Assembly (NCBI GenBank): GCA_963575645.1
Contig: OY754469.1
Location: 17,006,001-17,070,000, forward strand
Origin: Xanthostigma xanthostigma
Lineage: Eukaryota; Arthropoda; Insecta; Raphidioptera; Raphidiidae
Reading direction: 5' to 3'
Length of the DNA: 64,000 bases
This document shows, piece after piece, positions 4,147 to 59,653 of the stretch (positions are counted from its first letter, which is position 1; each line of letters opens with the position of its first letter). The notes beneath the pieces are model-generated. The model made no database searches. It was not told the origin of the DNA and saw nothing but the letters and a program-made list of their open reading frames with translations. A program made the position numbers and the translations under genes.

Positions 4147-4460
4147 CTGGGAGCGTATTCTCAGCTTTTTTTTGGTATAATAGCGAATTCGTTATATTGC
4201 TAGCACTCGTTATAATTAGTCAGAAGAGGGGATTTTCAGCGGTACGCAACTTCGACTAGTAGATCCATTAAAAAAGTTCAATGCGCATGTATAAAAATAT
4301 AATAAAATATATAAAACCTTATAGAAGTTATATATTTAATAAAAATCTACTAGTCAAGTTGAGTACTGTTGAAAATCCCTTCCACCGACTAATTATAACG
4401 AGTGCTAGTAATATAACGAAATCGCTATTATAACGAAAAAAAGCTGAGAATACGCTCCCT
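4147..4460. mobile_element. Fold-back MITE with TIR GGGAGCGTATTCTCAGC
   Basis: The left end (GGGAGCGTATTCTCAGCTTT) returns as its reverse complement at 4440-4459, and pairing continues inward for about 110 bases with small differences. It has no coding capacity. The duplication at the insertion site is unclear because CCTGG flanks both ends. Confidence 0.8.
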
Positions 4461-4927
4461 GGAGGGACATTAATGTCATATGTTGCTACAATGTCTGATG
4501 ACAGAATTTGAATTTCGCCAAAAGTATTTTTTAAATGTGTTACATATTTTTATGAGTTGGTAGGTAACTTTTTTTTGTATTCTGTAACAGGATCAACTGT
4601 ATATAATATATATTTTATATTAGCTAGGGTAATAAACATGTAGTTTATCGATCATTAATTTAGATTTAACACTACTATGCCTTTTGCCTATTATATTCGG
4701 TGTCAAAAGAAAGTTATGTTTTACCTTTTCTTACTAGTAGGTAAGTCTGACGACAGAAATTTTGAAACTCTATACCCTCCCTAAGCAAATACAGAGTAGC
4801 AAGTAAAAAAAAAAAAAACAATTCATCAGTAAATTGTACAACCCGGTTTATTCGATTTCAGAGTAATACCAATAACTTTTTTTTTAATTGTATATTTGAT
4901 ATCGCGTTCATTGTGATAATAAAAAAA

Positions 4928-5582
4928 AAAATTGGTTGTAAAGTCGGTTTATGGACGATAGTTTTACGTGATAACGTATTCCGTAATACATAACCTAAAC
5001 CTCCCAAAATTTGGTTTCAATCCGCTTATCCTTGGTGTCGGAATGATAAGAAATGTCAAAAGTGACGTTTGCAACTGTCAAAGTATTATGTTCTAATAAT
5101 AATTAGTTATTCCAATACTTAACTTAGAAGGCGTTGCATTTCACAAGATACTAATGTCAAAAAATTGAATTAAACATTAGAAATGCAGCCGTTTTCATGT
5201 TAAGACAAGACACGTTATTTTCTAATTTCCATGTACGGCAAACAAAGACGACCGACCGCGTCGCGCCATGCATTAGACAACATTGCATTTATACAGCTAT
5301 TTTTCTATATAAATTTGTATAAAAAAACTGTTTAGGCAAATTCTGTTATACGAAATCTATGTAAAATGTTCTCCTCTTTCGTTTAAGACTGGTTTCAAAC
5401 CGATCTGATTTAAATTGAGCGAGAAATTAGCAAAAAGCACGCACAGGGTCAGGCGGAACGTTACGCGTTACGAACGTTAGGATTTAGGAACGTTACACTT
5501 TTTCGTGCATGCAGCCGGTGTTTTATCAATTTATAAGATTGGTGATTCATCAATTTATAAGACGTTATCACGTCAAAAAAAA
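4928..5582 (+). repeat. Dispersed repeat family X, copy A
   Basis: Begins near TTGTAAAGTCGGTTTA with ACGTGATAACGTATTCCG and ends near AGACGTTATCACGTC, so ACGTGATAACGT appears inverted at both ends. Full copies occur at 25617-26625 and, reversed, at 27430-28110; a diverged copy lies at 53795-54900. This copy lacks the GCGCATGCGC tandem units seen in copy B. No protein-coding frame is seen. Confidence 0.75.
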
Positions 5583-24906: not shown

Positions 24907-25522
24907 TTAAGTTTACATTATAAAGCCACAATACCTGTATTAACAAATTCACTGTATTGTCTGCAGTGCTTGACATTGCGTCCCGAGTTTTTTAAATTTT
25001 ATTTTAACATTAATTGCCTATTACCAATTCAGTTTTCATTTTTTTAAATGATAAATTATAAATATAATAGGTTCTTTCGCTAATTCTTGGATTAAAATCT
25101 GGGAACTGGGGGTTTGGAATATTGACGATCATATTTTATGAAAACTTAGGTAAGTACATCCTTAGTTCTCTGGAATGATGGTGCATTGCAGTCTGTCTTG
25201 ACTTGCACGTATGTGACTTTTCTATTGATGTTTTATTTTAGATTTAATGTTTGAACTCTGAAGATATTTTTCTATTGACTGAAAAACATGTACTGTATTT
25301 CATATCTCTGTAGTCTAATATATATGTTCGTGCATAATATATTGTCTGTTAAGTCATATTTTTCGTTAAAATACACTATTTAAAATTGATTTACAATTTT
25401 TGTTCAAAATTAAGGTCGAAAAAAGTTTTCTATCTTCGTTTTGTAATAAACATTTATAATACCTTTTCAATTATTATTAATAATGGGAATGCGGACACAG
25501 GTATATAATTCTTTCCTTTATT

Positions 25523-25559
25523 GCTAACGTTTCGTCAATAATTTTGACTTTTTCAAAGC
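25523..25559 (-). ncRNA. Hammerhead-like motif B-left
   Basis: Identical in the key parts to 26726-26762: GCT/AGC helix I, core TTGAAAA, helix II GTCAA/TTGAC, GAAAC and GTT. The core departs from CUGANGA at C3 and G8, so I expect it to be inactive. Confidence 0.45.
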
Positions 25560-25616
25560 TCAAGAAAAAACAATTTTTTTAAATTAGAAAATAAAATGAA
25601 ACATAAAAAAAAAAAT

Positions 25617-26625
25617 TGGTTGTCTGTAAAGTCGGTTTACGGACGATAGTTTTACGTGATAACGTATTCCGTAATACATAACCTAAATTTATATAATAAT
25701 TATAATAATTCGAATCTATGATATTGCATCTTTCGCTTCAAATTTAGGTAAATTTTATTAAGTAGAATAATAAAACACTATAAAAAGTACACTATTATTA
25801 TATAAAAAACAACTATGGCATGTATCTCTTTTGCGCATGCGCCGATTTTCCCCAAAAAATTTACAAAAATTTCTAGTAAAAATAGATAGAGTAAAAACCG
25901 TTTTAAAAACTATATTATTATTATATAAAACATCATTATAAGAGATATATTCTTTTACGCATGCGCCGATGTTCCCCAAAAACAATAGGCCACTTCATAT
26001 TTGCATATCAAACATCCTCCCAAAATTTGGTTTCAATCCGCTTCTCCTTTGTGTCGGAATGATAAGAAATGTCAAAAGTGACGTTTGCAACTGTCAAAGT
26101 ATTATGTTCTAATAATAATTAGTTATTCCAATACTTAACTTAGAAGGCGTTGCATTTCACAAAATACTAATGTCAAAAAATTGAATTAAACATTAGAAAT
26201 GCAGCCGTTTTCATGTTAAGACAAGACATACGTTATTTTCTAATTTCCATGTACGGCAAACAAAGACGACCGACCGCGTCGCGTCATGCATTAGACAACT
26301 CACAACATTGCATTTATACAACTATTTTTCTATATAAATTTGTATAAAAAAACTGTTTAGGCAAATTCTGTTATACGAAATCTATGTAAAATGTTCTCCT
26401 CTTTCGTTTAAGACTGGTTTCAAACCGATCTGATTTAAATTGAGCGAGAAATTAGCAAAAAGCACGCACAGGGTCAGGCGGAACGTTACGCGTTAGGAAC
26501 GTTACGCGTTAGGAACGTTACGACCGTTAGGAACGTTACACTTTTTCGTGCATGCAGCCGGTGTTTTATCAATTTATAAGATTGGTGATTCATCAATTTA
26601 TAAGACGTTGTCACGTCAAAAAATT
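25617..26625 (+). repeat. Dispersed repeat family X, copy B
   Basis: Starts TTGGTTGTCTGTAAAGTCGG and ends GACGTTGTCACGTC. It includes two units of about 134 bases with TTGCGCATGCGCCGAT (25826) and TTACGCATGCGCCGAT (25960), which copy A lacks. A GGAACGTTACGCGTTA satellite-like run lies near 26490-26530. Non-coding. Confidence 0.8.
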
Positions 26626-26725
26626 ACAATTTATTTTCCATTTTTTTATAAAAAAAAGGAAAATAAATTGTAATTTTTTTTTGTTTAATTTTATTTTCTA
26701 ATTTAAAAAAATTGTTTTTTCTTGA

Positions 26726-26762
26726 GCTTTGAAAAAGTCAAAATTATTGACGAAACGTTAGC
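26726..26762 (+). ncRNA. Hammerhead-like motif B-right
   Basis: Helix I GCT (26726-26728) with AGC (26760-26762). Core TTGAAAA, extra A, helix II GTCAA (26737-26741) with TTGAC (26747-26751), then GAAAC and GTT. The pairing is kept although the stem differs from all other copies. The core has two substitutions. Confidence 0.5.
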
Positions 26763-27274
26763 AATAAAGGAAAGAATTATATACCTGTGTACGCATTCCC
26801 ATTATTAATAATAATTTATTGAAAATAAATACTACGGACTTTAAATGGAAAATAATAATTTATAATACCTTTACCTCCACCACCTATACCCGTTCCTCTT
26901 CCACCATCTATACCCGTTCCTCCACCACCATAATTTTACTTACGACTGATGACTAAAATAATTGTTACTTGTCAGTGCTGTCACATTTATACTTCACAAT
27001 TTAATATAAGCGACACATTTTTTATACATGTAAAAAAATGCATAAAAAACTGCCGTTTACATTATGTGTTATGTGAAGTATAACTCTTTAAACCCGGCAA
27101 AACTTCTTTTGTTTTTTGTTGTATATTCGAATTATTTAGGAATCAAAGAACCTAGAAAATTATAAAAAAAAAATTGTACCACTGCTTAACCGTGAAAATA
27201 ATCCGCGCTAAGCCGGTAGCGTTCACAAAAATTAATCTGTTTCGCGACAAATGAAAAAAGTGTCGATCGTCACG

Positions 27275-28560
27275 ATCGTATGGGCTATGTGCAAGGGTGG
27301 AGCTACAAATGTTTCGACTTTCGATGCGAGCGTTTGTGGTGAGCTTAGGGGAAACTTCAACCTCAAATTTTCCGTATATCAAAGAGCAATGTTTATTAAA
27401 AGTGAGTATAGTTATAATTTTATGAAGTTTTTGACGTGATAACGTCTTATAAATTGATGAATCACCAATATTATAAATTGATAAAACACCGGCTGCATGT
27501 ACGAAAAAGTGTAACGTAACGTTCGTAACGCATAACGCATAACGCGTAACGTTCCGCCTGACCCTGTGCGTGCTTTTTGCTAATTTCTCGCTCAATTTAA
27601 ATCAGATCGGTTTGAATCCAGTCTTAAACGAAAGAGGAGAACATTTTACATAGATTTCGTATAACAGAATTTGCCTAAACAGTTTTTTTATACAAATTTA
27701 TATAGAAAAATATTTTATACAAATTTATATAAAAAAATAGCTGTATAAATGCATTGTTGTCTATTGCATGGCGCGCGGGCGACGCGGTCGGTCGTCTTTG
27801 TTTGCCGTACATGGAAATTAGAAAATAACGTATGTCTTGTCTTAACATGAAAACGGCTGCATTTCTAATGTTTATTTTTTGACATTATTATTTTGTGAAA
27901 GCAAAGCCTTCTAAGTTAACTATTGGAATAACTAATTATTATTAGAACATAATACTTTGTAAGTTGCAAACGTCACTTTTGACATTTCTTATCATTCCGA
28001 CACCAAGGATAAGCGGATTGAATCCAAATTTTGGGAGGTTTAGGTTATGTATTACGGAATACGTTATCACGTAAAACTATCGTCCGTAAACCGACTTTAC
28101 AGACAACCAATTTTTTTTTTATTTACAAGGAAAACATGGGCAAAACTATAAGCGATCTGGAAATGCTTGATGTGTTCCAGGCTGTTACGCTGATGGCGTA
28201 TTATGTAAAATAAAGACCATTGGCGCCATAATTTGACGTTCCGCTGTCAGTGTAAACAAATTAATTATTTATATATTGTACGTCATAATTGATAAATAAA
28301 TCATTCTCACGTACCTTTTATGTTACTCCATTTATATAACGGTTTGCAATCTGAATTTTATGGTACCTATATAAAATTAACATCAGTTTTCTTTATTACA
28401 TTTTTTTTACACATCATGGCCAACTAATGTTTTTGACTTATCACCAATCACCATAGAAACATGTCGCGATTTCCATAAAAAGTGAGTTCAATAATTCTCT
28501 ATTACCCACTAGTGGCGATAGTAGGCTCCGTGCACGCAGCCTATAGGACCGGTTGTAAAG
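27275..28560 (-). repeat. Repeat family Y, reverse copy split by family X
   Basis: Reverse match to 1-495 and 36545-37000: ACCACAAACGCTCGCATCGA lies, complemented, near 27320. The match stops near 27430, resumes near 28120 (TTTACAAGGAAAACAT) and reaches GGCGATAGTAGGCTCC at about 28520. The gap is a copy of X. Confidence 0.75.
27430..28110 (-). repeat. Dispersed repeat family X, copy C
   Basis: Starts GACGTGATAACGTCTTATAA and ends CGTAAACCGACTTTACAGAC, the reverse of copy A. It sits inside a Y element, so X was mobile after Y had inserted. Confidence 0.78.
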
Positions 28561-33790: not shown

Positions 33791-34202
33791 TTAAGAGTAT
33801 TCGTCCCTGCAAATACCCCCTGTACCCTTTATCTCAAATATTTTCCCCTCCCGACGCTATTTTTAAAGTTAGAGGGTTCTGGTAAACGCCAAATGAAAGA
33901 CAAAGAATCAGACAACAGATCCTTCAGGCGAATTTTTTGAAAAAAATTTCCTGAAAAAACTTACAACCTTTTGAAAAACAAAAAAATAATAAGTTACGTA
34001 ATATTTCACACGTAGGCGAAACTGTTTTTCAAAAAATTCGCCTGAAGGATCTGTAGTCTGATTCTTTATCTTTCATTTGGCGTTTACCAGAACCCTCTAG
34101 CTTTAAAAATAGCGTCGGGAGAGCGCGAACCGTTTTTAGGCGAGGGGAAAAGATTTGAGATAAAGGGTGCAGGGGGTATTTGCAGGGACGAATACTCTTA
34201 AT
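33791..34202. mobile_element. Long fold-back element
   Basis: TTAAGAGTATTCGTCCCTGC at the left returns complemented at 34183-34202. Arms of about 150-160 bases (GAGGGTTCTGGTAAACGCCA is paired as well) enclose a short AT-rich loop. No coding frame and no hammerhead-like motif. Confidence 0.85.
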
Positions 34203-36060: not shown

Positions 36061-36344
36061 CCTCAAAACGAAAATATATTGTGAGATTTTGAAAAGCGAA
36101 TTTTATCTAAATTAGTGCCATTCCCCACTTGCGGGGTTGGAATGGTAATAATACTCATTCGAATATTCAATAAAATATTCGTATTCGGCTTGATTTTAGC
36201 CGAAACCGAAGGTTCAATTTTTGATCGAATGTGGCCGAAGCTTTGATTCAGACACTAGTGCTCAAGAATATTTATACGCATTCGCTATATCTGAATAGAA
36301 TGATAAATTGTAATTAATTGTTGCTTCGAGGAATGTAGGGGAAC

Positions 36345-36502
36345 AGAAAGGTTTGTTAATACACCTTATTATTTTACCTTGTAAAGAATTTTGTAATAAT
36401 TATTATCTTTGTATTTCCATAGATCGCCTGAAGAAGCAAAAATATATCTGCGAAACGTCGCAGAAATTAATAAGGTGTATTAACTTACTTTTCTGTTCCC
36501 GT
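36345..36502. mobile_element. Compact element C with one hammerhead-like motif
   Basis: Short TIRs: GGTTTGTTAATACACCTTAT and AATAAGGTGTATTAACTTAC, plus GAACAGAAA/TTTTCTGTTC outside. Unlike fold-backs A, B, D and E its interior is not a palindrome and it holds only one motif, with an intact core. Confidence 0.75.
36426..36461 (+). ncRNA. Hammerhead-like motif C
   Basis: Helix I GC (36426-36427) with GC (36460-36461). The core CTGAAGA is a full match to CUGANGA. One extra A, then helix II GCA (36436-36438) with TGC (36449-36451), GAAAC and GTC. Helices are short; the core is intact. Confidence 0.6.
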
Positions 36503-36544
36503 ACAGTCCTCGGAGCAGCAATTAATTACAACTATTTGTGATCG

Positions 36545-37000
36545 GAACCTATAGGCTGTGTGCATGAAGCCTACTAGCGCCGCTAGTGGGTAATAGGGAA
36601 TTATTGAACTCACTTTTAATGAAAATCGCGACATGTTTCTAAGGTGATAAGTCAAAAACTTTAGTTGGCCATGATGTGTAAAAAAATGTAATAAGAACAC
36701 ATGTTAATTTGTTTACACTGACAGTGGAACGTCAAATTAGGGCGCCAATGGTCTTTATTTTACTTAAATCGCCATCAGCGCAACAGCCCGGAACATAACA
36801 AGCATTTCCAGATCGTTTAGTTTTCCTATGTTATCTTTATAATTAAAAAACTTCATAAAATTGTAACTATTTTCACTTTTAATAAACATTGCTCACTGAC
36901 ATGCGGAAAAAATGAGGATGAAGTTTCCTCTAGTGCTCACCACAAACGCTCGCATCGAAAAATTTATAACTCCGCCTCTCTGCACATAGTCCATACCTAT
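36545..37000 (+). repeat. Dispersed repeat family Y, copy 2
   Basis: Same orientation as 1-495 and clearly similar over the full length, e.g. CGCCGCTAGTGGGTAATAG and CCACAAACGCTCGCATCGAA. Complete by comparison, no nested insertion. Confidence 0.8.
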
Positions 37001-37572
37001 TAGAATGATAAATTATTAATCACTAACGATCTTAGTTATCGAGTGTCTATAGTTAACGATCTGATAATCGTTTCTGGAACAGTTTGTATAGTTTACCAAT
37101 CACCGCATTCATATCTTGAAACCGGACTTTACTGTTTGTAACGAGCTCTCCTCCTCAAGTAATGAGGGGTTATTCAGGGGGCGCAAAAGGGGCGATGCAT
37201 CAAAAGAGAAGATAAAGAGTTGGCAAATAAGTACGCATGACATATACCTTCCCACTGACAAGTTTAGAACATAAAATGTCTTCTTCGGCTTGCTTCGTCA
37301 GTACGTCACACATTTGGAGAGTTGATGTCATCCTCTCATATTATGCCTACTTGTCATGAAACGTACGAACGTTGAAAGATGGCGCTGTTGCGAATCGTCC
37401 GTTAAAATGAAATTTGTTCGTTATTTTAAATTTTAAATACGTGTTACCTTCTGATAATAATTGGATATTATCCGCAAACGATAACATGTAAGTTCTTTTC
37501 TTTTATAAATATGTATTTATTTATTTTTAAGATTGTGTAAAGTTCTCCATGTTATGTTCACGTCCAATAATC
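37001..37572. other. Spacer between repeats
   Basis: No coding exon, no clear repeat. Contains a locally GC-richer part (37140-37400) without recognisable motif. Confidence 0.4.
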
Positions 37573-37632
37573 AATATCAATCTATTTTTTTACGGGAATG
37601 TGGACAAAATTACATAAGTTACACTATTGTGT

Positions 37633-37678
37633 AATTGCTACGTTTCGTATATTTTATTTTATACTTCCTCAGGCAACT
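37633..37678 (-). ncRNA. Hammerhead-like motif D-left (best copy)
   Basis: On the minus strand: helix I AGTTGC with GCAATT (six pairs, one G-T), core CTGAGGA (full CUGANGA match), extra A, helix II GTATA with TATAC around an 8-base loop, GAAAC and GTA. All three hammerhead parts fit except the extra A after the core. Confidence 0.65.
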
Positions 37679-37854
37679 GAAATAATTACATTAACATAAA
37701 ATGAGAACAACAAAATATTGCAAAAGTTCATAACAGTTTTTTTTTCAGAATGACACACAGTTAACCTGTGAAGGTAATATTTGAAAAAAAGCTTATTATG
37801 AACTTTTGCAATATTTTGTTGTTCTAATACTTATTATGTTATTGTAATTATTTC

Positions 37855-37900
37855 AGTTGCCTGAGGAAGTATAAAATAAAATATATGAAACATAGCAATT
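37855..37900 (+). ncRNA. Hammerhead-like motif D-right, decayed
   Basis: Same layout as D-left with the core CTGAGGA and the AGTTGC/GCAATT helix I, but ACGT has become ACAT and the last helix II base changed to T, as expected of CpG decay. Confidence 0.5.
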
Positions 37901-37957
37901 ACCAATTAGTTTAACTTGTGTAATTTTGTCCACATTTCTGTAAAAAAGATTGATATT

Positions 37958-40900
37958 ATTTTAATTATTTGCAATTTTTTATTCTTTATTGTAAATTTAT
38001 AAAACACTTTTTATTTTCTTACACTTAATTTTATAACGATTCTTTGATATTTCACACAACAAAGTAGCTTCTTCAGACAAACACTTAAACGTAACCTGGT
38101 GGAGGCGCGGAGGTACTGAGTTGTGTGAAACAACAAATTGTAAAAAAGGTTCTTAGATGTAATTAAAATAAAACGTTGTGCTTTATCAAATTTTAAATGT
38201 ATAATATTAATTTACATCAAGCAACGACCGTATATTGAATTTGTTTGGTCGTTAGTTTTCAAATGATTTATAAAAATAATAAAAAATGTGGAAACCGGTT
38301 GATATGTAGGCCAACTCAAAAACTTCCCGCAATGTGTTAAATACGCAACATTAACTTGATACGGTGTTTATAACACTTTAAAGAAGGTGAAAAAAAACGT
38401 GAAAACATTTTAACTTTTGTTCATTGAATAACCTTGAAATTGCTTGAGAGATTGACTCCAAAATCTAATCAGAACGAAGTCTCAGTAAACTCTCTAGAAA
38501 AAAAAATTGTTTACAAATACACACATACGGACGTTCATCCAAAAATACTCAGAATAGCTTCCTAGGACCCCAAAACGTCGAGATCTGTTGAAAATCAAAT
38601 CAAAACCAATAACTTCTCATTTTTAAAAATTTTCCATAGCGGGATGTTAAAAATAAAATAGATAGCGCTTTTCTTTTTTAAAAACGTTTTTTAAAACACG
38701 AACAAATAAAACGGTATTTTTACATGGTTACGAACAGTGTGTAAACAGTCGCATTACGAGTCGTACGTGGAAAAAGTTCCTTTTCGAGACGGGTTTATCT
38801 TTCTCTCACTTTTTATACCCGTTGTCACTTTTATCGCATATCCGTTTACATGTCCTCGTAAAAAATATCGTGCGTGGCAAGTGTGAGAAGCTGCCTCCTT
38901 TTTTAAACATGTGCGATGCTTTTGAATATCGCATTTGTTTTAAAAAAGGTACTTTCTCACACTCGTTACGTAATATACCTACTATAAACTATAATTAATG
39001 TCGTACTGAAAGTTTTTTTTTTTTTAAGTTTATGTAAATAATCTATACACGGTTTATATATTTTTTATAGTTAATATTCAATATACCATATTTTTTCATT
39101 AAATGCGACCACATTTTTTAATGAAAAAATATGGTATAATCGTTGCTAACTAGAAAAACATTTTTTTTTTTAATTCTAAATTAATACCGTAGATCTCTTT
39201 TATATACTTTAATACATTTTTTATCAAAATATTGTTTTTTACCATGCCAGATTCAATTTTTAAGCGCCGTGACAGCGTTTTTTCATAAACAAATCAGCTT
39301 TTACAAGGGCCGTGTCAAAACACCACCTTAATTTTTTTCTGAAAGAAGGTTTGACATCTATTTTCTGCATAAAAATTGGTCTGTCAGCGAAAAAATGTTT
39401 TTTACTATGACAGACTTCATAAAAAAAAAATTATAACAAATGAAGTCTTACAAATTTATTAACAAAAATTGTCAGCCAGACAAGTTGTATTAGATAGAAC
39501 TTAGAAGAAATCTTAAACTTTATTTAAAAAAAAATTCAAGAAGGTGTTATGAAATGTATTTTCATAAAAAAAATAATTTATAACAAATGAAGTCTGACAA
39601 ATTTATTAACAAAAATTGTCAGCCAAACCAATTTTTTCAAAAATGGTACATAATTTTCTACAAATTGTATAAATTTTAAGCAGGTGTTTTAAAATTTAAA
39701 AAATCATAAAAAATAACAATTAACAAATTTTTACTAGTTTGGCGAGCGTAACATGTTTCTTACATGTTTTTCAGCCATTTTCACTTTATAATTTTGAGGT
39801 GTTCGTATAGGGGTAACTTTTTCTGTCATGGGAGCTTGGACTATAGGCAGCGTTTTCGATGGAAGCTCCCAGTCGGCTTGATTTTTTCCGACATATTCAA
39901 CAATCATCGTCATATTTCAACCAAATTACACAAAACACATAAACCTTTCTCTTGAATTACTCCGTCCAGTGGTGAAAACCGTATCAAAAATCCGTTCGGT
40001 AGTTTTTGGTTTATCGCGTTCAGACAAACAGGCAGACGCGACGGGTGGACTTCGTTTTATAATATTATGTAGTGATAAAATCTTCAGCTTTGCAAAGAAT
40101 TGGCCGTAAATCCGGTTTTTACAAATTTAAATTTCCAATAAAAGAAGCACATATTTTCTTGTATAATAGGTCATATGCATGAAACTCCAAATTGGTTTAA
40201 ATTTTTATTTCGAAATATATTTTAGTTCCTAATCATATCGTAATGGTTATTTTATTAATCTAATCAATGAAAAAAATACAAATAATAAAAAAGAAATGTA
40301 GAAAATACGCGCTATTTTCGAATTTTCAAAACACAGCGTGACGTCAGAGTATATATCAATTCCATGACGACTGTGTCGTCTCACAGTAAGATTATGTCAG
40401 TATTTAGAGAAAACAACAAATAAACTTCATTTAGAACATTGCCAATTTGACATCAAGATTGACATGCATCATATATCATGACGTCACATAAGCCTGCTAA
40501 CATGGCCGATTGTTTAAACTGTCTATTTTTGAATGTGAAATTTAATATTTTTTTTCTTATGATAATATTACATTTTTAAATGATTATCAATTTTTTCCCG
40601 TATTATGTTTGACTAAATAATCTATTAAAAATTTAAAAAAAATACATGCATATGACCTATTGGAGAGAAAACTTAAATTATTTCTATGTTTTTGCTTTTA
40701 TGTAAAAGGGAAACATTTTGATGGAAGGTCCGTTTTTACAGATTTTTCATCATGATAATTCGGTATGGATTATTTAATCTGCTATTGCAGACTATACTTT
40801 TTCTACTTTTGTGCTGTAATTTTACAAATTCAGAATATCAGTGAGTATTTATAATCAATGTGAAATTTTAAGGAAGACCCCCGTGGTACAGAATCAATGT

Positions 40901-41145
40901 TAAAGCAATATATATTGATGTTTATAATCGCTTTTAATATACTAATTGATGTTTATAATTGCTTTTAATATACTAACGTATCGATACTCTTATAATATTA
41001 AATGCAATTTTAAATATTAGTATTACTTTATCATTGATCTTTTGCCAACAAAGGTCGTTCTTTAAATTTCGCACTATAATCATTGTAAGAATAATAATTT
41101 TAGTTCTTCAGAGTCAATTTGACTATCATTTGTTGTCAATATCAG
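37958..41145. other. Intergenic spacer with local repeats
   Basis: No gene seen. AAAATATGGTATA and its complement form a hairpin at 39090-39136. A direct repeat of about 55 bases (ATAACAAATGAAGTCT to AAAATTGTCAGCC) occurs at 39433 and 39578. At 40005-40075 there is a tail-like piece (CGCGTTCAGACAAACAGGC, TTTTATAATATTATGTAG) of the repeat type at 32732. Confidence 0.5.
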
Positions 41146-42206
41146 CAGGGCCGTAACTATAGGCAGAGGTAACAGGGGCACGTGCTCAGAGGCCAAACGG
41201 AAAATGTTCCAGAAAGATCCCAGAAAGATCGAAAAAATTTGTATTATATTAAAAAACTGCACGCCTTTTAATAACTTTTTGGGTACCTGTCTAAAAATAG
41301 TAGATCACCCATGATGCGTTTGAGTAACATAATAGCTTAAAAAAGTTAATAGTAAAAAAAACATATTTGAAAACAAGCCTTTGTTTAAATGCTCTAAAAA
41401 GAAGAAAATAAACTTTAAATTGAATGAAATCCAACCGTTCGTTACATTATACAATTTATATGATATAAAAGCTTGTCGCGAAACTTTTTTGTGTAAATAA
41501 ACAAAAGTAAACTATGTAACTTGATCTTGACACAAGTAATTCTACGAAAAAATGTATGTATTTCATAAAATATATTTATTACAGAGGAAAATCTTGCGAC
41601 AAGCTTATATAAATTATATTCAAAGTTTATTTTATTCTTGTTTGAGCATTTAAATAAAAGCTTGTTTTTAAAAATGTTTTTTTACTATTAATTTTATTTT
41701 TAAGTTTTTAGAGTGCTTTATTAAAAGTGCAATTTGCATCCGGACGAAAGCGAGACCAGTCAGTTAGTTATTATAATATAGTATTGTCATCGGAACTACA
41801 TACGTATGCAAAATTTCAACTCAATCGGATAACAGAAAGTAGTTAAAAGTGCAATTTGCACCCGGACGAAACCGGGACCGGTCAGTTAGTTATTATAATA
41901 TAGTATTGTCATCGGAACTACATACGTATGCAAAATTTCAGCTCAATCGGAAACCAGGAAGTAGGTCAAATCTAACTTGTAAAATTTGATTTTTAGACAG
42001 ACAGACAGATACCGGAACAGGTGAAACTAAAAATACACGTAAATTTAAAAATATCTCTCTCCAAAATTTATTTTTCTGATTGTACTACTGGTTAAAACTA
42101 TTATTTTGGGGAAATAAGTAGCTTCATTTAATTCATAAAATTTATTGTAGGGGGGCCCAGTGATGAGGTCTTGCCCAGAGCTTCAAAAAATTTAGTAACG
42201 GCCCTG
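41146..42206. mobile_element. hAT-type element, 1.06 kb
   Basis: Ends CAGGGCCGTAACTATAG and TTTAGTAACGGCCCTG. Flanks AATATCAG (41138-41145) and AATATCAA (42207-42214) match in seven of eight positions, so the duplication is old or slightly mutated. The interior has no transposase; it contains a tandem duplication. Confidence 0.8.
41726..41966 (+). repeat. Two-unit tandem repeat, about 120 bp period
   Basis: GTGCAATTTGCATCCGGACG and GTGCAATTTGCACCCGGACG start two near-identical units including CATCGGAACTACATACGTAT. It is followed by CAGACAGACAGA. The unit looks like the tail of another retroelement captured in the hAT. Confidence 0.8.
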
Positions 42207-43360
42207 AATATCAAAATCAATAAATAAAATGACAACCTGTCTGCAAATTATTGTTCGGCTTTAATGAAATTCAGACGTCTACATATAGTTTCTAGGATAC
42301 TTAACTCGTTATATCAATTTAGAAATTTCCACAATTTTTGTCGGTCCGTCTGCTTGATAGCGTTTACGAAGCTGAGCAGCAGACAAAAAACCGAACGGTC
42401 GAAATAGCAGTTTGATGTATCTCGCATGTAAATGCAGTTATTATATGTTACGAGTTGAGCGAGTTTAACAATCACACGTACAAGATACATATTACAATTT
42501 TTGCACGTACCTCCAATAACATAGCTGATTTTTACATCATAATAAGCATATTTGTAACATTCAACAGTTCACGTTCCGCCATATTGGTATTTGTGAGTAC
42601 TTGTCAACATCTACTCTGCTCTCTACTGCTCTTTATGGAATTAAATGACAACTGACAGAGATATCACTATTGCATTGGTAAAATCGCATTACTTTCGTTT
42701 TACTTTATGTACTAGTGCGAAAACTAGTCATTTTATAACCGTTATACGGGCATGAAAAGCAACTATTTTATAGTGGGTCGTGCAAAAAAGTATAATATTT
42801 TTTTTTGAATAGCTTCCTGCATTAATTTATAGCAACTCTTTAATTTTATAAATTCTTGGAACTTATTATCAAACTAAATAAGGCGCTTTACTTTACGCTA
42901 TTCGCGCCTAAAAAGATAAAGTGATATTTCGTAATTTATTTGCTTATATTAAATAATTATATATAGAATACAGTAGAATGTAGAACATAGTATTGTCTCT
43001 TTAATCTGCTGCTCGATTATCCGACAAACTTTGTACTCCGCCGTTTTCTTAATTAGTTGAAGACGGATGATCTGATGCTTTTTGGAACACCACTTCCAAC
43101 TTTTCACGAACATTGCAAAACATAAATATATGCATCTATTTCTCAATAAAATATATCTAGTTCTTTCCTTTTGTCAAATATACACTCTAATCCGTCACTT
43201 CTACTAATTCGACAATAGCTTGACTATCAGAGTACTGTACTAAATATATTTCAGTTAAGATATCCTAGAATGATTGTAATTCAATATCAACGATGTTAGA
43301 AAACAATCAGTTTAATTTACTGCTGTATACAAAACATAATTGAGAAATGTACTGTTTTAG
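42207..43360. other. Region 5' of the first recognised chloride-channel exon
   Basis: The channel gene must continue upstream, but I find no signal peptide or N-terminal exon here by eye. Short frames are unconvincing. Confidence 0.4.
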
Positions 43361-46300
43361 AGTGAGCTTAACATTCAATGATCTTCTTCCGGAAGATCCT
43401 AAGCTTTACGATAAAATGCGACCTCCAAAAAAGGAAGGTCAACCAACTACAGTGTATTTCCATGTAACCGTTATGGGCTTAGATTCTATTGATGAAACTT
43501 CAATGGTACCTACATAAATTATTGTTATTTAATTAATACTTCCATTTCATATTTTTAAGATCGATAGTGATTTATGGCATCATTGTAGACTTATGCTGCG
43601 GATATATTTTTTGCACAAACATGGAAAGATCATAGACTCCGACTTCCAGAAAATATGACATCGGAATACAGGTTTGATTTATAATAATGTTATTAATCTT
43701 TATTCCATAAAAAAATAGTGTAGGCCTCTCGTTAACGACAACGGATAACGGCCCGATTTTTATGACGGGCGGTGGGCCGACGCGCAGTGTTCAATAGGTT
43801 AGTGCAGGTGTTTGTTAACGCAACGGGCATGTAATCGTTGCAACAAAACTCACCAGATACCCGCACGTCGCCCCTCGGCGCGACGGTGGTCGGTCCGATG
43901 CAGTGGACCACGTAATTTCATAGAAGTCTGTTGACGACGACAGATGTGCGCGCACGTTTTTACCTATACCTACCTACCTACCTTGTGCTGCTCATTGTGA
44001 ATATGGAGTTTAAAATTGATATTGATATGGATTTATTAATTAGCCTTGTTCATAATAGGCTAGTGTTGGGACAAGACCAGGGCTGCCAGATTTCTCTCCT
44101 CAGAAATCCGTCGGTAAGGCGAAAAGTGGTGGGGGAAGTGGTCTGAAAAATCCGTTTCCATCCGTTCGCCCGGTTCACCCATTAATGCAATGAGTGTGAG
44201 AGAGATAGAGAGTAAAGTGAAGTATGCGGTACCATAAACGACACATCGACGTGTTTCCACCATGGACATAGGTATTCCTTTGTCCATGGTTTCCACCTTC
44301 ATTATGGCTTTATTATTAACATTATTAAATGAATTTCGTATAAGACGTTGAATTTACTTTTATTTACAAACAGACTTTAAATTGGATAGAAATGATTCAT
44401 TTTTTCACATCCAATGAATCGATTATTTAGTAGATTTTTCACATTTTTATGAAATAAAAATATTATATTGACTGTTAGAATGTTGCGATAGTAACAAACG
44501 CGGCAGTACAATCAGTTAAATCATCAATGTGTTCCGTAAATCCGTGTAACTCGAAACACTTCTTGACTCCAGTTGTGTGAAAAAAACGCATCAGACAAAG
44601 ATAGCGAGTCGATATTCATCGATATAGGTGTGTGTTTCGCGAACACATTGTTTCATACACTCTCTTATCTTTTTCTACCCAAATAGAGAGAGGAGTAGGA
44701 CAGAGGTAGTGAAAGAAACGTGCTCAGATATGCTCGAATGTGCTAAAAATACCCGAATGTCCCCAAATTATCGATTATCGAGTGAAGTTTGAATTTATAT
44801 GTAGTAAAAAAGGTAAAAAATTCGGAAAAGTTAGAAAATCCGTTAAATCCGTTCAGATATATGAAATCCGTTCCATTATCCGTTCAAATTTATTTCTACT
44901 CGAAAAATCCGTTTGGAACGGAAAAATCCGTTCATCTGGCAGCCCTGGACAAGACTTTAGAAAATTACTAAAATAAACAAACAAGACATAACGTACTTGC
45001 ACTTCTTCGTCCTTCAAGTATAGAACTGATATCGATAACAACGGACGCGCTCACGTATATTAGCGGATCGTGTACAAAGGTAACCGTTTCGCGTCGGCCC
45101 GTTACCCGTTGTCTAAAACGGTCGTTAACAAGAGCCTACGGTATAAAATGTGTCAACAAATATAAAATTCATATGAGGCAAAATTTAAATATTAAAAAAA
45201 ATTTTAAATCAGTTTGTTTAGCAGTCTTTTAGGCCTAGCACACATGAAGAGCGTTCAACGCGCGTTGGCCCAACGCGCGTTTATAATTTCTATACAATTG
45301 TGTATAACTGTTTATATGATAACGCGCGTTGGCGGCGCGTTGAACACGCGTTATCATATAAACAGTTATACACAATTGTATAGAAATTGTAAACGCGTGT
45401 TGAACGCTCTTCATGTGTGCTAGGCCTTAATATTGCTTTTAAATGTTAGATTAAATTGGCACTTCAATTAAAAATAAATAATAATCCTCATTAACCCTTT
45501 TGTTATAAAATAAGTACCTACAATAATACATTACACTTTTGTATATTGTTACATGTTGTTTTTTTATGTACCTACATTGTTTTATTGCATTTTTTATTTG
45601 TTAGAGTAATTTTCTTGTTACATTCTCAAGAATAGATATTTTTATATCATGCATGGAGAGCTTATATCAGTGGCGTACACATTTTTTCCGTTTTTCCCCA
45701 AATGAGCGTTATTTCAATATTTCAAAATTCTTGTATGATGCAAGAGAAATAAAATTTTAAATATTTTAAGTAACTTTTTTATCAAAACTCAAAAATAAGG
45801 GAGAAACAACCGTTCAAAATTTAATTAAATTTATTAAATGTTATTTAATTAATTCAAAAGCCCAGTTAACACACGCGAAGAAATAATAGCACGAATCGGA
45901 AATGCATCCCTAATAATTCGCGAAGGCCTTTATCGCTACTACAAGCATGTACAGAAGCATGGCTACAAAGATGCGTGCGTCGCGACGCACGCATCTTTGT
46001 GTCCAAAAAAGCGGGGATAACTTCGAACAATTTCTGTGAATACTTGATAATGACATAACATATTTTCATAGTGACATAACATAACGCCAGGACCCGGCCA
46101 GGGCTGACCTCAAAATTGGATAGAATTTAATAAAACTTTGAAAGCCCCCTTCTCTCTCATTTTTGAATTTTGATAAAAAAGTTGTACTCGAATTATTTTT
46201 TCGTCTATTTGATTTCTGCACGCTGTTAAAAAAAATCAACTTAAGAATCACCTGTATTAGAAACATATTATTATTTCCTGGTTAACCGCGGTAAACTTTG

Positions 46301-49294
46301 TTGAGATATAATTTAAATATGGCTATTTTAAATTAAAGTCCAAAAACACGACGCAGAAAAATAGGAAATGTTTAAGACAGAAATACTTATCTATGCAAAA
46401 AGTTTTCAAATGTGCTTAAAGAGCATTTAATTAAATTTTGTGTAAATATTCTTTATTAAAAGCCCGACGAAAATTATTTTGTTTCCAGTAAACAGGGATT
46501 TTGTAATATGTATGCATCCGCTCGCGTAAGCTTTTAATTATAGTGTTATTATCTGTACGATGCTCTCTTTCTACCGGGTACAGATTATTGTGTACCTACT
46601 ATACGAAGAACTTTGGAAAGAAACACTAGTAGACATTTATTAATATTCATATAAAACAGTATCAATTTTATAAAAGGATAGGCATTTCAAACTAATTAAT
46701 AAAATAATTGAATTTCGATATTCAACTTTGAAATTACTTTATTGATTATGTAATTGCCAATATTAAGTGGAAGTTTATTTAAATTGATGTTGCAAACGAT
46801 GTACAATTATTAAAAAATTCAAATCTTCTTGGTTTCCGGGCTTGTATGCCGTGGTCCATTAGTATTTCTACCTGAAGTTTCGTCTACAACTGCGCGGGTA
46901 GACATTATCAAAGGCGATGTGGTAGCGGGCGAAGTGTCTTTCTAGGCTGCTCACAGGTAAGTGTGTCGACAACCTTTATCTTTGCGGTTGAAATTATTTA
47001 TGTGTTTCAACCGCAAAGATGAAGGTTGTCGACACACTTACCTGTGAGCAGTCTAGAAGGACACTTCGCCCGCTACCACATCGCCTTTGATAATGTCTAC
47101 CCGCGCAGTTGTAGACGAAACGTCAGGTAGAAATACCAATGGACTACGGCATACAAGCCCGGAAACGAAGAAGATTTGGATCAATACCGGCCGTGAAAGT
47201 CTACACACTTGGATAAAGTCTAAAAATATGCTTTTTATGTTATTCAAAAGATTACATTAAATTCGCTGTAATCTGAAAACATAAATTATTAATCAGTTGC
47301 TTATAGTCTATCCTGAAATAGTGTAGTGCAGGGATGACCAATTAGTTTCATTGCGGGTTCGTTTAAAAAAAAATATACATCTCTCGCAGTCCGTTTGGGA
47401 GATGATGTCTATAGCAACCAAGATTTATAATATCAATTAAAAAATAAAACGAAATAACTCTGAATATTTTTTTATTGGATACCTTTAATTAAAAAATCAT
47501 CCGTCCGTCGCCGCGTGACTATCCGATGAGCGGCAGAGACAAGACAAAGCGCAGGATAAACTGGATTACTACAAATTTTTATATTGATATTCTTAGATTC
47601 TTCTGGGTCCGCACAAAAATAGGTTGGCGGTACGGATTCGGACCGTGGTCCGCCGTTTGGTGACCCCTGGTGTAGTGTAATAAATTATTTTGGTTTGAAG
47701 TTTTTCGACACATTTCAGTAGTACCATCGTGCATCCTTCCTTTAAACATTTCTGAATTAAGGTAAATACCTATAACAGCCAAAAATAACATCCTTATAAT
47801 TATAATCAAAAGACTACCCGCTCAGAACAGTCTTAAAGTTTATTGGTTATTAAATCTGTACTCGAATTTGGGAATGACATAAAAGAAGGCTAGGTACCTA
47901 CTCTATGGTGTCACTGGAATATGTCAAAAACACAACAACCGTCAATATTTTTTATTACTGTACACTATTTCAGTATAAATTATAATTCAAATTGATCGTC
48001 TTTCAGAAGAAAATAAGAAGAACCTCCCTTGATAATAAGACATAGCTTTATATACACAAAGTTTGCTGTTTCAAACTTCAAAAATACTGCAAAAATAATT
48101 TGTTGACGCTCACGTTAAAAGAAAAGCAATGTATTTTGGAAGTAAAATAGTGAAAAATGTTTCTTTTAGATTACTCGAGGTCGATTGGTTAAAAAATATG
48201 TGGAGACCTGATTCGTTTTTCAAAAATGCTAAATCGGTTACTTTTCAAACAATGACAATACCGAATCATTATTTATGGTTGTACAAGGATAAAACTATTC
48301 AATACATGGTTAAGTAAGTATTTCCAGTCCTAGATACCCATAAGTAAGTTTAAACCTTGTGCATATTTTTTACTGATAGTTAATTTTAGGCTTACGCTGA
48401 GACTTTCATGTGCTATGAATTTTTTGATATATCCACACGATACTCAAGAATGTAAATTGCAAATGGAGAGCTGTAAGTTTATTCAACTTTCTTAGATCAT
48501 TCAGATTTGAGAATTTTTAGTTAAAAGTTTATATATTTCAGTGTCACACACCACAGATGATATGATTTTTCAGTGGGATCCTGAAGTGCCGTTAGTTGTT
48601 GATGAAAATATTGAATTACCTCAATTACAGCTGGTTAAAAATTATACTGCTGATTGTACGCAAGTTTATTCGACAGGTTGGTGTTTTAGATTTGCTTGAG
48701 AGATACTATAACTTTTTTGAAAAAAAATTAGCATTTCGTTCCTCATATAAAGATATAGGGGTGGGAGGGATCATAGTGGGGTACTTAGCTACCTACCTAC
48801 CTACCTATGCCCCCCTCTCTATCTAAAAAATGAGAAACGTCACCGCGTGAAGATTCGCCCTTAAGCTTGATTTTCTTCTTATACGAAATGGAGTATCTAC
48901 TTAGAAAACTGTCTGCCAGTCAAAATCCTTATAGTCCCCGTTATGATTTATTTACATTACCTTTACCTCACTCCTCTCAATTTCAAAAATCCTTTTCATA
49001 TGTAGCCCCAAAACTTTTAAATGACATGTCCCAATCACCTGACTTGGCAGATATAACAAACAAAATTTTGAATCTGAAACCAGCCAAACTAAAAATACTA
49101 ATAAAACAATTTGTTTATAAAAGGCAACTAAATACCAACAATTTTCGTGCCTGTGTGTTAACCAACTAGATTTAATTTTTCTTCTTTTTGTAAATATGAT
49201 TTTATAAAGTTTTATGTACAGGGGCAGGAGGAAGATCAAACTCTAGTTTGATCCTGTCCCTATTGCCTAAATTTGTACATTTAGAGCATTAAAC

Positions 49295-52300: not shown

Positions 52301-55300
52301 CAGGTACGTAGTGACAGTTCTAATACAAAACAAGCGTCTGCTAACGGTGCGTTTATACAGCAGTATACTCGATCACTTATTAAAATATAATTATGAGAAC
52401 TTTTGCATACAGCACGCTACGACCACTAGGCTATCAGATATAGCTACGGTGTACAGTACAGTTCAGATAGTTCATTTTAACTCATTGCAATTATACACTT
52501 AGTTGGTAAACTGACCGCGATCTATGTCGATGTATGGGGACAACAGTTTTCCAACGGCAAGGCGGGCAAAATCTTTGAGACTCGATTCCCGTGACGGACA
52601 AACTATTTACGTACTTACAAGTTTGTACGGAACCCTCGGTGCACAGGTTCGACTCGCACTGGGTCGGTTTTTTATTTATTCATTTAATTAAAAAAGAAAA
52701 TTCATGAAAAATGATTTTATTTGGTTTAACAAATTCAAGGTACCTACAAAGTATTTGATGTGTGGCTACGTGCAAAAAAAATAAAAGCTTTCTAATTTTC
52801 TTGTCTAAGCGCAGGAAAATAAGAATAGAAATAGCGAGGAAAATTACACTGAACGGGCTTATAGATGTTCTTTTGTTAATATCCGTAGACCATAGCTGAT
52901 GCGACGTAAAACCACTGATAATTTTTTGTGAAAACGGCAAATAATAGAAAATAATACTCACATTCATTTTTGAATTAACCGTTTTGTTATCAAAAATCCG
53001 TGATGTATATGTTACGGTTAATACAAGAAAGTAGTTTATTCGCGAATTAACCGACTAATACCCGAATAACCAACGTCAAGGATTGGTTAATTTGGGTAAT
53101 TAGCCGATTAATTCGCGAATTAACTACTTTCTTGTATTAACCGTAACATATACATTTTCCAAACTGAGAAACTTTGACTTCTAGTAATTTAGTGTATTTT
53201 TAAATCTTTCACAAGAACACAAAATTAAAAGAAAAGTGAATAGTACACAATTAAACGCACTTACACAAAACTTTAGAAACATTAATAATCGGAGTAACAA
53301 ATTCACAAATGTTGTACAGTTTTATAAAAAATGCATGCTTCAGAAATTCGACACTCGGGAAAATGGTTAGCGCGTGCAGTCTGCGCGCTTCTGCACAATT
53401 TCTGTTAGCTTTACCGTAATTATTTTTTGTAAAATACGGCATACTGTTTTATGACTATCACGGTAAAGTAATCGGTAATAACTGATTTATAAAATTGTGC
53501 ATTTGATCTAAATTTTAAAGCAGTTACATAATCAGTGATCAAGCTGTGTCTTTGAGTGCATAATACACTATGAAATTATCCAGTGGAGGGTACACAATTA
53601 TTTTTCATTTTTTTTTCTACAAAATAAACCTTCCGATATCTTTAACACTTAAGGATAGGGATTATTTAAAATTATTGAAGATTTGTTGAATTTTTTTTAA
53701 CTGTTTCTGAATGAAAAAGAAACGTAATAAACACTTTTACATTTAAATTGAAAACCTCAAAAGTTGAAAATTTGTGATATCATGTCATATTTTTTATTTT
53801 TAGGCGCGATTAGCGTAAGCTAAAGCGCCTTATATGTACTCGCTTTGTCTGTGAATCTGTGAGTCACGCTTTTTGTATCCAGCGTACAGCCCAAACGCCT
53901 TAACCGATTTTAAAAAACTTTTTTTTGTTCGATTCGTCTCCGGGTAACTTAAATCCTAACGTCGCCCGATTTTTGAATTTTGACCCCAGAGGGGAGCAAT
54001 AAAGAAAAAACAAAGTTTTTTGCTTATAACTCACTCAATTTAAATCAGATCGGTTCGAAACCTGTCTTAAACGAAAGAGGAGAAAATTTTACATAAATTT
54101 CGTACAACAGAATTTGCCAAAACAGGTTTTTTATACAAATTTATTTAGAAATAAATTCAATTTGATATAATCGATGGCAAACATCTTTCGGTTATCTCTC
54201 TCTGTTGCACGGTTTAATATGGTAATATAAAGATTACGTTTGTTCTGTCTTAAATTAAAACGATTGCATTTGTTCAAAAACGGATGGCATTTCAAATATT
54301 TGTGAAATGCAACGCCTTCTGAGTTAACAATATGAATAACTAATTATTAGAACATAATACTTTGACAGACGCAAACGTCATTTTTGACATTTCTTACCAT
54401 TCCGACACCACGGATGAGCGGATTGAAACCAAATTTTGGGAGGATGTTTGATATGCAAATATGAAGTGGCCTATTGTTTTTTGGGAGCATCGGCGCATGC
54501 GTAAAAGAGTATATCTTTTATAATGTTGTTTTATATAATAATAATATAGTTTTTAAAAAGACTTATTATTTTATCTATTTTTACATGAAAGTTTTGTAAA
54601 TTTTTTGGGGAAAATCGGCGCATGCGCAAAAGAGATATGGGCTATGACGTTGTTTCTTATATAATAATGCTTTACATTTCATAAGGTTGATTATTCTATC
54701 TGTCTTACAAGAAAGTTTTGTAATTTATTTTTGGGGAAAATCGGCGCATGCGCAAGAGATATTATGTGCTATAACGTTTTTTATATAACAATGGTAAAAT
54801 TTTTTTAGCGGCTTATTATTCTATCTGTTTTACAAGAAATTTTTATATTTTATTTCGGGAAAAATCGGCGCATGCGCATCAGAGATATATGTTATTACAA
54901 GAAAAATAAAATAATAATAAAAAGAAAGTTTTTATTGAAATGTACCAAAATGGAAATATAATTATTTTAATAATTTAGGGTAATAATTATAAAAAAGTTG
55001 GTTGTGACTAATTATTAATAAATTATTAAAATGATTTTTTCCTTTCTGTGTTTCAATATTTTCAACTGTAATTTTTTTCGTAGAATAAGTTAATTAAATT
55101 ATATTATTAAGCTCAAAGTGTCGTTAAAAATATACTACAATTTTCAAACATAACGCCGGGGTATATTTTATAGAATTTCGCGCCTTGTAATTCTTGAATT
55201 ACTTGTGTCTTCAGACAATATTTTTCTTTGTGTTTATGTTTTAGATTCGTGTTCATGGCTCTGATGGAGTATTGTTTGGTTAATATTGTACTGGGTGACC

Positions 55301-58186: not shown

Positions 58187-58347
58187 TGCTACGGTAAATG
58201 TAAACTCTTGGGAAATGTACACTTTTACCGTAAAATGTGCCGGACAATGTGTACATTAAATGTAGATATTGCGGCAAATGTACACATTGTCCGGCACATT
58301 TTACGGTAAAAGTGTACATTTCCCAAGAATTTACATTTACCGTAACA
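58187..58347. mobile_element. Palindromic MITE P2
   Basis: TGCTACGGTAAATGTAAACT and its complement at the end; GTGCCGGACAATGTGTACAT paired at the centre. TA-flanked. Terminal bases TGYTACGGT are shared with P1, so the two families may use the same transposase. Confidence 0.88.
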
Positions 58348-58448: not shown

Positions 58449-59653
58449 GGGTGTATTCGTTTTGGGCTCTTCACGCTTTCAGCGCTGTCAAGCGGTGCTT
58501 TTAGTGTTTAAGTTGATACTGTAAGCGCTGCAAAGCGCGCTTATGCTTGAGTTCAAACGATCGGCACAACGTTCACAAATGCTTTACCTCTCGAGTTAGT
58601 GCAGCAAAAGCATCAGCGCCAAATCGTACTAACTACTAAAACGAACACAGTATTAAGTGTTTTGAGCGTTTATTCGTGTCATATTTAAGGCATCTTAACC
58701 TCAATTTTGTGTGTACTGATAGCAAGTGAAACTTAAAATTATTTTTTCTTTGCAAAATGGCAAATTCATTGCCATTAATTTGGAAGATCCATTATTGCTT
58801 TAAAAATTTCTAAATTATTTACATTTGCCTTTACATTTGCCATAATGATGCCAACTGACGTTTACTCGCGCTTATCGCAAAGCATAGATCCCAAAGCGAA
58901 CGGTATTTTAATGAGTAAGCCGCTGGTCTGCAATAAACGCCGTAGGTCGCATACAGCGTCACGCCATACGCCGCGTCTGTATGCTTACTATGGAAATGTA
59001 TACATACGGTCTCTTTTTCACGTTAAACGCAGCGTCCAAATGCCATCCGTCGTACCTAAATGTTGTAGGCAGCGTCTTTAGTTATTTTCGAGCATTGTAG
59101 CGTCACGGACGCTGTGAAATACGCCGCGCAATGAGTAGATTTGATAAAGACAAGGACGAGTTGTACCTATTGATATGTCATTTTTAACTAGTTTCAACAC
59201 GCTCATGAACTGTTCCCTTGACAAACGAAGATATTCCACAAACTTGATATTTTTGTTATTTATGTGTTTCAGCAACATGTTAAAACACCCTTCAGTATCC
59301 CTCCTCACAAATAATTCGTGTTTTCTTCGTCCCTTTTTGGGCAGTGACATTCTTAGGAGGTCATCGTCATCTTCCTCGAGTAAAAGAAGCGTTAAAATTG
59401 TTTTAGCATCCATTTTTTAACAAAACTAGTTGAAAGATCGAACTATACCTACTGACGACGAGCGATCTCCGCGCATGACGTTCTCTTTTTATAGTGACCA
59501 CTTAAGTCGCGAGTGACGTACTAACGTTGTACGCTACGTCAGCGAACGCTGGACGCAGCGCATGGCGTAAAAATTGCAGACCAGCGGCTAACAGTAGCGT
59601 TCAAAAGCCAAGACGAATGTCAATAGATCGCGCTGAAAGCGTGTAATGCACCC
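58449..59653 (-). mobile_element. PIF/Harbinger-like element, internally deleted
   Basis: TIRs GGGTGTATTCGTTTTG and GGGTGCATTACACG (read from the right), with CACGCTTTCAGCGC shared just inside. ATA lies on both sides (58446-58448, 59654-59656), a 3 bp duplication. It carries an N-terminal transposase fragment on the minus strand. Confidence 0.78.
59078..59413 (-). pseudogene. HARBI1/ALP1-like transposase N-terminal fragment
   Basis: 111 residues: after an acidic stretch (LEEDDDDLLRMSLPKKGRRK) comes FNMLLKHINNKNIKFVEYLR and LSREQFMSVLKLVKNDI, like the start of Harbinger (HARBI1/ALP1) nucleases. The DDE catalytic part is missing; the frame ends in unrelated sequence. The enclosing TIRs support a deleted Harbinger copy. 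Confidence 0.75.

Follow-up and report, generated by a model that had tools for sequence, protein, structure and literature searches.

Minimal hammerhead motifs in head-to-head inverted repeats of Xanthostigma xanthostigma, probable pseudo-LTR insertions of Penelope-like elements

A 64,000-nt stretch of the genome of the insect Xanthostigma xanthostigma (assembly GCA_963575645.1, contig OY754469.1, positions 17,006,001 to 17,070,000 of the forward strand), referred to here as the window, contains five loci (A to E) with a hammerhead-like RNA motif. We consider it highly probable (about 0.93) that these loci are insertions of five families of Penelope-like elements (PLEs), each composed of two pseudo-long terminal repeats (pseudo-LTRs) in head-to-head inverted orientation that carry a minimal type I hammerhead. 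The motif, its covariation, its association with PLE genes of this genome, the inverted arms, the tails and the duplications (A, B and C) were all observed. An earlier note, made from the DNA letters alone, had taken five sites in the window for hammerhead-derived motifs of PLEs. This assignment was supported by covariation and by elements of the same genome that code for reverse transcriptase (RT) and GIY-YIG nuclease and carry the motif.

The five sites were located as described, with agreeing strands, helices and triplets. The motifs lie at 17097-17143 in A (plus strand, core CCGAAGA with U4C, helix II GGCA/TGCC), 26721-26767 in B (plus, TTGAAAA with U3-A8, GTCAA/TTGAC), 36420-36467 in C (plus, CTGAAGA, helix II decayed to GCA/TGC), 37631-37680 in D (minus, CTGAGGA, GTATA/TATAC) and 47079-47132 in E (plus, TTGATAA with U3-A8, GTCTAC/GTAGAC). 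The triplet after the core was GUH at all five sites and GUG at none, as had been claimed; the genome patterns used below fixed H at this position.

The combined motif (core, helix II of at least 3 pairs, GAAACGTH and helix I of at least 2 pairs) matched 6 times in the window; 200 Markov sequences gave 0.03 matches on average and never more than 1. A relaxed scan, in which core positions 3, 4 and 8 were free, the closing pair had to be G-C and 0, 1 or 2 extra bases were allowed, returned the same 6 matches and none in 60 controls. Taken singly, GAAACGTH was weakly enriched (14 in the window, 8.9 expected, 14 reached by 4 of 100 shuffles), and enrichment of YYGANRAWG was not clear (42, 34 expected, 10 of 100 shuffles). 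We then searched the window with a covariance model, R2, trained on ten sequences (A to E and five motifs from loci with a GIY-YIG domain). Nine motif copies at the five loci were found with E-values from 7.2e-10 to 4.4e-5, and the next match had 0.24; these E-values are rough, and A to E make up half of the training set. A, B, D and E have two copies each, one per arm, and C has a single copy, on its right arm. The additional ones are a copy in A with disturbed helix II (16746-16792, minus, 37.2 bits), one in B identical in sequence to its right-arm counterpart (25518-25564, minus), a decayed one in D (37853-37902, plus, 31.7 bits) and GAAACTTC in E (46866-46919, minus). The reported observation is confirmed and is larger than described: there are nine copies at five inverted-repeat loci, not five single sites.

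The whole assembly (623 Mb, 28 contigs) was searched with the pattern YTGANRAWG-N5-25-CGAAACGTH. It matched 21,849 times (10,898 + 10,951), and the same pattern read backwards matched 25 times (16 + 9). Since the pattern fixes only the outermost G and C of helix II, pairing at the inner positions could be counted: among the first 100 matches listed, positions 2, 3, 4 and 5 were paired in 92, 93, 96 and 88. In the ten-sequence set of ten families, chosen from the reported sites and a scan demanding at least 3 helix II and 2 helix I pairs, helix II was paired to 93.9% and helix I to 70%, with 38 double changes compared to 12.6 after shuffling. For 40 distinct motifs, aligned with the model, the values were 91.5% and 67.5%, with 156 double changes compared to 59. 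The structure was already in view when the sets behind these pair counts were chosen or aligned. The pair of core positions 3 and 8 was no part of scan or model. In the genome it was C-G in 15,881 matches (by subtraction), U-A in 4,825, U-G in 698 and C-A in 445; in the 40 motifs it was C-G in 23, U-A in 14, U-G in 1 and something else in 2. Copies are related, so that these numbers do not count independent events. U-A makes up whole families (B, E, L010/L011 and others), and the mixed combinations among the matches listed were, by eye, mostly scattered mutants of C-G or U-A families. A class with purine at 3 and pyrimidine at 8 was also looked for in the genome and was dropped, being close to background (43 matches, control 18). 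With helix II pairs present in 88 to 96 of 100 copies and positions 3 and 8 covarying over thousands, the lack of covariation that, according to the earlier note, would refute its reading was not found. Helices I and II are kept as pairs and not as sequence, as in hammerheads of PLEs.

The same note had listed core substitutions in A, B and E and an extra base before helix II as caveats. The consensus CUGANGA...GAAA...UH is exact in C and D. The other three do deviate, but in B and E the change of C3 to U together with G8 to A is a single compensatory pair change, and A has U4C. U3-A8 was reported for natural hammerheads with activity in vitro, and excerpts of the same source (PMC3088659) mention a viroid variant with U4C. 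The extra base is indeed present at all five sites, and exactly one base separated core and helix II in each of the 6 matches of the relaxed scan; it is, however, general in this genome. The 21,849 genome matches have A or T at this position, and 475 matches (control 47) have G directly behind the core, many of which, among those listed, can be read as having G as the extra base. In known alignments CUGAnGA and its stems are likewise separated by one or two inserted bases (excerpts of PMC10085705). Helix III is missing, as published for hammerheads of PLEs (excerpts of PMC6155905 and PMC7761336), and the self-complementary ACGU is present within GAAACGUH at all five reported sites. A second class has AUGU, self-complementary through two wobble pairs (4,530 matches of a broader pattern in the genome, control 706); among 100 matches listed from this search, the non-C class was largely one AUGU family plus background.

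The link to PLEs was provided by coding elements. A genome search with the Pfam GIY-YIG domain gave at least 37 matches (150 scored of 521 candidates). The motif was present at an E-value of 0.01 or better in 28 of 30 GIY-YIG loci examined, and in 27 it was on the strand of the domain and downstream of it. Eighteen of the 30 loci (L021-L038) look like one family, five loci had supplied training sequences for R2, and some overlap as neighbours (L018/L020, L025 to L027, L035/L036). Locus L060 has a frame of 804 aa with RVT_1 and GIY-YIG domains, preceded and followed by the motif on the frame's own strand, and this order is that of PLEs with their pseudo-LTRs. L021-L038 form a large PLE family whose GIY-YIG scores are nearly the same and in which many copies have GAAAUGUA instead of GAAACGUH; this suggests that the family spread recently. 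A seat in the pseudo-LTR of an element with RT and GIY-YIG nuclease is thus established for the motif in this genome, not for families A to E themselves.

All five loci are head-to-head inverted repeats with the left arm on the minus strand, the right arm on the plus strand and the 3' sides pointing outward. The arms of A, B, D and E came from a repeat search, the shorter inverted pair around C from an alignment of flanks. No open reading frame of 90 aa or more overlaps any of the loci, and RT and GIY-YIG coding sequence is absent from them; they are pseudo-LTR-only copies and not autonomous PLEs. The arrangement recurs in the genome. Among the first 100 matches listed, neighbours within 1.5 kb were oriented minus-plus in 20 cases, plus-plus in 2, minus-minus in 2 and plus-minus in 1. 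A first look gave 2,457 candidate copies for family E, 1,426 for A and 342 for B, of which 40 per family were scored, so that the copy counts for these families describe the best-scoring copies. Among the copies listed, 39 of 39 inverted groups were head-to-head, and five more groups of B were same-strand pieces.

Element A begins with a target-site duplication of 12 bp (16604-16615; 14 bp with one mismatch), followed by a 48-nt 3' tail found on the left arm only (16616-16663, minus), the left arm (16664-16865, minus; 98% complementary to the right arm over 16673-16813), the right arm (17009-17222, plus) and the right duplication (17220-17231). It sits between two exons of the gene for Polo-like kinase 4 (Plk4_PB1, Plk4_PB2 and Pkinase; 12904-17873, minus), so that its left-arm motif is on the strand of that gene. 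In B, the left duplication (25452-25468, 17 bp with one mismatch) reaches into the start of the left arm (25464-25624, minus), which has no tail; the right arm (26659-26825, plus) continues into a 32-nt 3' tail of its own (26826-26857, plus) and the right duplication (26858-26874). Another repeat family lies between the arms of B (25606-26625), with relatives near 4916-5580, 27425-28122 and 54343-54637. The arms of D are at 37569-37751 (minus) and 37779-37960 (plus). E has a left arm without a tail (46817-46993, minus) and a right arm (47005-47181, plus) that extends beyond the end of the left arm into a 3' tail common to copies of the family (47182-47216, plus, end set from these copies). At 47093-47221 (plus), E retains the initial 43 codons of a frame that stays open for 55 and whose ATG lies where the core meets helix II.

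Element C is less complete. Its short left arm (36308-36375, minus) ends before the motif, and its right arm with tail (36376-36548, plus) has an inner border taken from the left arm's end. C is a decayed copy: helix II has 5 pairs in its relatives L002, L003, L005, L006 and L008, and no hammerhead fold is predicted for C itself. An unrelated repeat, X, is nested near its 3' end (36549-37000); X recurs at 28-484 and, in rearranged form, within 27278-28547. The sequence TAGAATGATAAATT encloses C together with X (36296-36309 and 37001-37014; an observation by eye that has no separate control). That X was inserted together with C was considered and dropped: X is absent from seven loci of the C family within 1.5 kb, and relatives L002-L004 run, by eye, a few bases past the X border before they diverge, so that X looks like a later nested insert. 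Its ends resemble, by eye, short inverted repeats, and X is perhaps a miniature inverted-repeat transposable element (MITE).

Target-site duplications were searched for within 90 bases on each side, with random pairs of window stretches as control. The 95% level of the control was 11-12 bases, and its maxima ranged from 15 (A and C) to 77 where repeats were struck. Duplications of 12-17 bp were found at A, B and C. A 3' tail is present on one arm only in A (left), B, C and E (right), and this was also seen in the best-scoring genomic copies. In all 19 inverted groups of B (including that of the window) one arm reached the tail (query end 180-184) and one was short (139-161). For E, the nine loci of 12 with an inverted partner, again including the one in the window, were all one-tailed (206-218 and 174-183). 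Ten of 14 groups were one-tailed in A by a weak measure, the A query being without tail; two of the other four reached 214 on both arms and two ended at 208 on both. One of those reaching 214 twice is A of the window itself, whose right arm has no tail. No two-tailed inverted pair occurred in B (19) or E (9) among these copies; pairs without any tail may be missed in such counts, and two-tailed pairs should have scored highest.

The one-tail pattern (B 19/19, E 9/9, A 10/14) speaks for a coupled use of both internal start sites of reverse transcription. That both sites are used in every inverted PLE insertion, each for a different one of the two cut strands, is a tentative proposal that we would put at somewhat less than even odds. 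If it were general, an asymmetric PLE dimer would prime the two strands in different, coupled ways; in vitro, no difference in start sites between the strands was seen (PMC11167929). A strict one-tail rule was not found in a limited literature search, nor in PMC11167929 or the excerpts of PMC3846280 and PMC12910113, and on this thin basis the regularity is possibly new. Inverted copies would serve as a fossil record of PLE insertion, in which the one-tail pattern makes the question of PLE integration testable.

We also predicted how the motifs fold, as secondary structures without dimers or protein. With ten flanking bases, helix II had a probability of 0.77-1.00 in A, B, D and E and did not form in C. 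In a context of arm length the values were 0.77 for B, 0.79 for D, 0.48 for E and 0 for A and C. When the entire inverted element was folded as one transcript, the two helices had a probability of 0.00 at all five loci, as the arms pair together. The loci are accordingly best taken as products of insertion, with ribozymes that are probably masked. According to published work, the hammerheads of PLEs are minimal, have no helix III and may be cleaved in dimeric form (excerpts of PMC7761336 and PMC6466107); ACGU, located between the core and the cleavage site, has the self-complementarity that a dimer requires.

Several results weigh against the interpretation of the loci as hammerhead-bearing PLE insertions. 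Rfam gave no hammerhead match in the window, with gathering cut-offs or up to an E-value of 5, and none of its matches overlapped the nine motifs; those up to 5 were mainly long palindromes labelled as miRNA precursors below cut-off, among them the palindrome centre of E, together with weak tRNA, PK-repZ and snoRNA matches. The number of pairs with double changes was not above that of shuffles in the ten-sequence set (117 of 500), and in the 40-motif set shuffles matched both this number (465 of 500) and the pair types (320 of 500). Two of the 30 GIY-YIG loci, L012 and L017, have no motif, and L010 has it on the opposite strand only. Among 48 PLE loci compared, the arms of A to E found only short, weak matches and the E peptide found none (best E-value 0.44). 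The duplication of A (14 bases with one mismatch) lies above the 95% level, which is 12, and below the highest control value, 15; the candidate duplications of D (11 bases, level 11) and E (10, level 12) do not rise above the 95% level. In the arm-length context only B keeps both helices; D and E have helix II without helix I, and A and C have neither. Finally, the hammerhead of Poseidon from Anolis needs protein in order to cut, and insertion in vitro goes on when it is mutated (PMC11167929).

Other explanations were weighed against the same data. That short AT-rich words came together by chance, or that some other structure is under selection at the same place, would agree with the near-expected counts of GAAACGTH and YYGANRAWG taken singly and with the better alternative fold of C. 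Chance was refuted by the counts for the combined motif, with 0.03 strict matches per window in controls and 21,849 compared to 25 in the genome; moreover, positions 3 and 8 change jointly, a trait specific to the hammerhead core. We regard the probability of this explanation as negligible.

The inverted arms, short flanking duplications at three of five loci and the lack of a long internal frame are also what one expects of MITEs whose terminal repeats happen to contain hammerhead-like sequence. In MITEs, however, the termini match, whereas the one-sided tails make the arms unequal here. Furthermore, inner ends differ among copies, the same motif adjoins GIY-YIG/RT frames, and at 3 of the 12 E loci an inverted partner is missing from the surrounding 1.5 kb. 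MITEs were therefore rejected as very improbable. Marginally less improbable are metazoan retrozymes. These are small elements that carry type I hammerheads, are not autonomous and spread in the form of circular RNA; the loci share with them shortness, the lack of a long frame, high copy number and the type I strand order. Retrozymes form tandem repeats and have canonical type I motifs with loop-loop contacts (excerpts of PMC7229834 and PMC7761336), whereas the arms here are inverted and helix III is absent, and this led us to reject them as well. The ATG of E, in addition, is located where the frame of Poseidon starts (PMC11167929).

For PLE insertions, the preferred explanation, we infer the mode of insertion, cleavage, dimer formation and masking in vivo as follows. 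The PLE protein, with its RT and GIY-YIG nuclease, would cut both strands of AT-rich DNA, and each 3' end would be extended on PLE RNA from one of two internal start sites separated by about 30-50 nt. That both strands are cut and extended, and that reverse transcription begins at two internal sites, has been described (PMC11167929). Joining of the two cDNAs would yield arms whose 3' ends point outward, a one-sided tail and a target duplication of 12-17 bp. For head-to-head copies, self-priming on an antisense template has been favoured instead (excerpts of PMC3846280), and the present data do not discriminate between the two routes. Cleavage of the transcript by the hammerhead would take place in the parental tandem elements, probably within a dimer formed through the self-complementary ACGU and perhaps aided by protein. 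In an inverted copy, the sense and antisense motifs of a read-through transcript would pair, and such copies are probably silent as ribozymes.

Elsewhere in the window, two frames match histone PARylation factor 1 (HPF1; 19376-20041 and 23119-23466, plus). Inverted repeats without the hammerhead motif are found at 4146-4462, 33848-34121 and 58209-58325, and tandem repeats at 41721-41964 (122 bp) and 54477-54895 (124-125 bp). A frame of 112 aa at 59078-59416 (minus), without a Pfam match, resembles by eye a PIF/Harbinger transposase.

In this one genome the helices covary over some 21,800 pattern matches, and the catalytic pair 3-8 occurs in two states, which amounts to a test made by nature; this shows the minimal PLE hammerhead to be an RNA structure under constraint. 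Annotation based on Rfam would overlook the nine motifs of the window.

The system is of a known kind, of which this genome holds a rich example. Minimal type I hammerheads of PLEs were described by Cervera and de la Pena (2014) and Lunse et al. (2017), as referred to in excerpts of PMC6155905, PMC7761336 and PMC6466107. The motif resembles them in strand order, core, helices I and II, the missing helix III, its seat in the pseudo-LTR and thousands of copies per genome; no fundamental difference to these accounts was seen, the extra base before helix II being outside the comparison. The U3-A8 pair of B and E is likewise known in nature. Natural hammerheads with the same compensatory change of positions 3 and 8 are given as "several" examples in PMC3088659, whereas 4,825 matches belonging to several families were counted in one genome here. 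In Poseidon of Anolis, PAc (PMC11167929), the frame starts at stem II, much as the ATG of E does, and the cut site is 26 bp past the frame start, compared to 32 in E as counted from the window. A 'tail' between two RT start sites is a further likeness to the elements of the window. PAc occurs in tandem repeats, whereas at the five loci of the window the arrangement is inverted and the frame is lost. Penelope elements of Adineta vaga, according to excerpts of PMC3846280, likewise have inverted pseudo-LTRs, target-site duplications and a 31-bp tail on one pseudo-LTR, and head-to-head is their commonest inverted arrangement. Coding sequence lies between the pseudo-LTRs in the examples presented there and the duplications are 8-10 bp long, whereas the loci described here consist of pseudo-LTRs only, with duplications of 12-17 bp.

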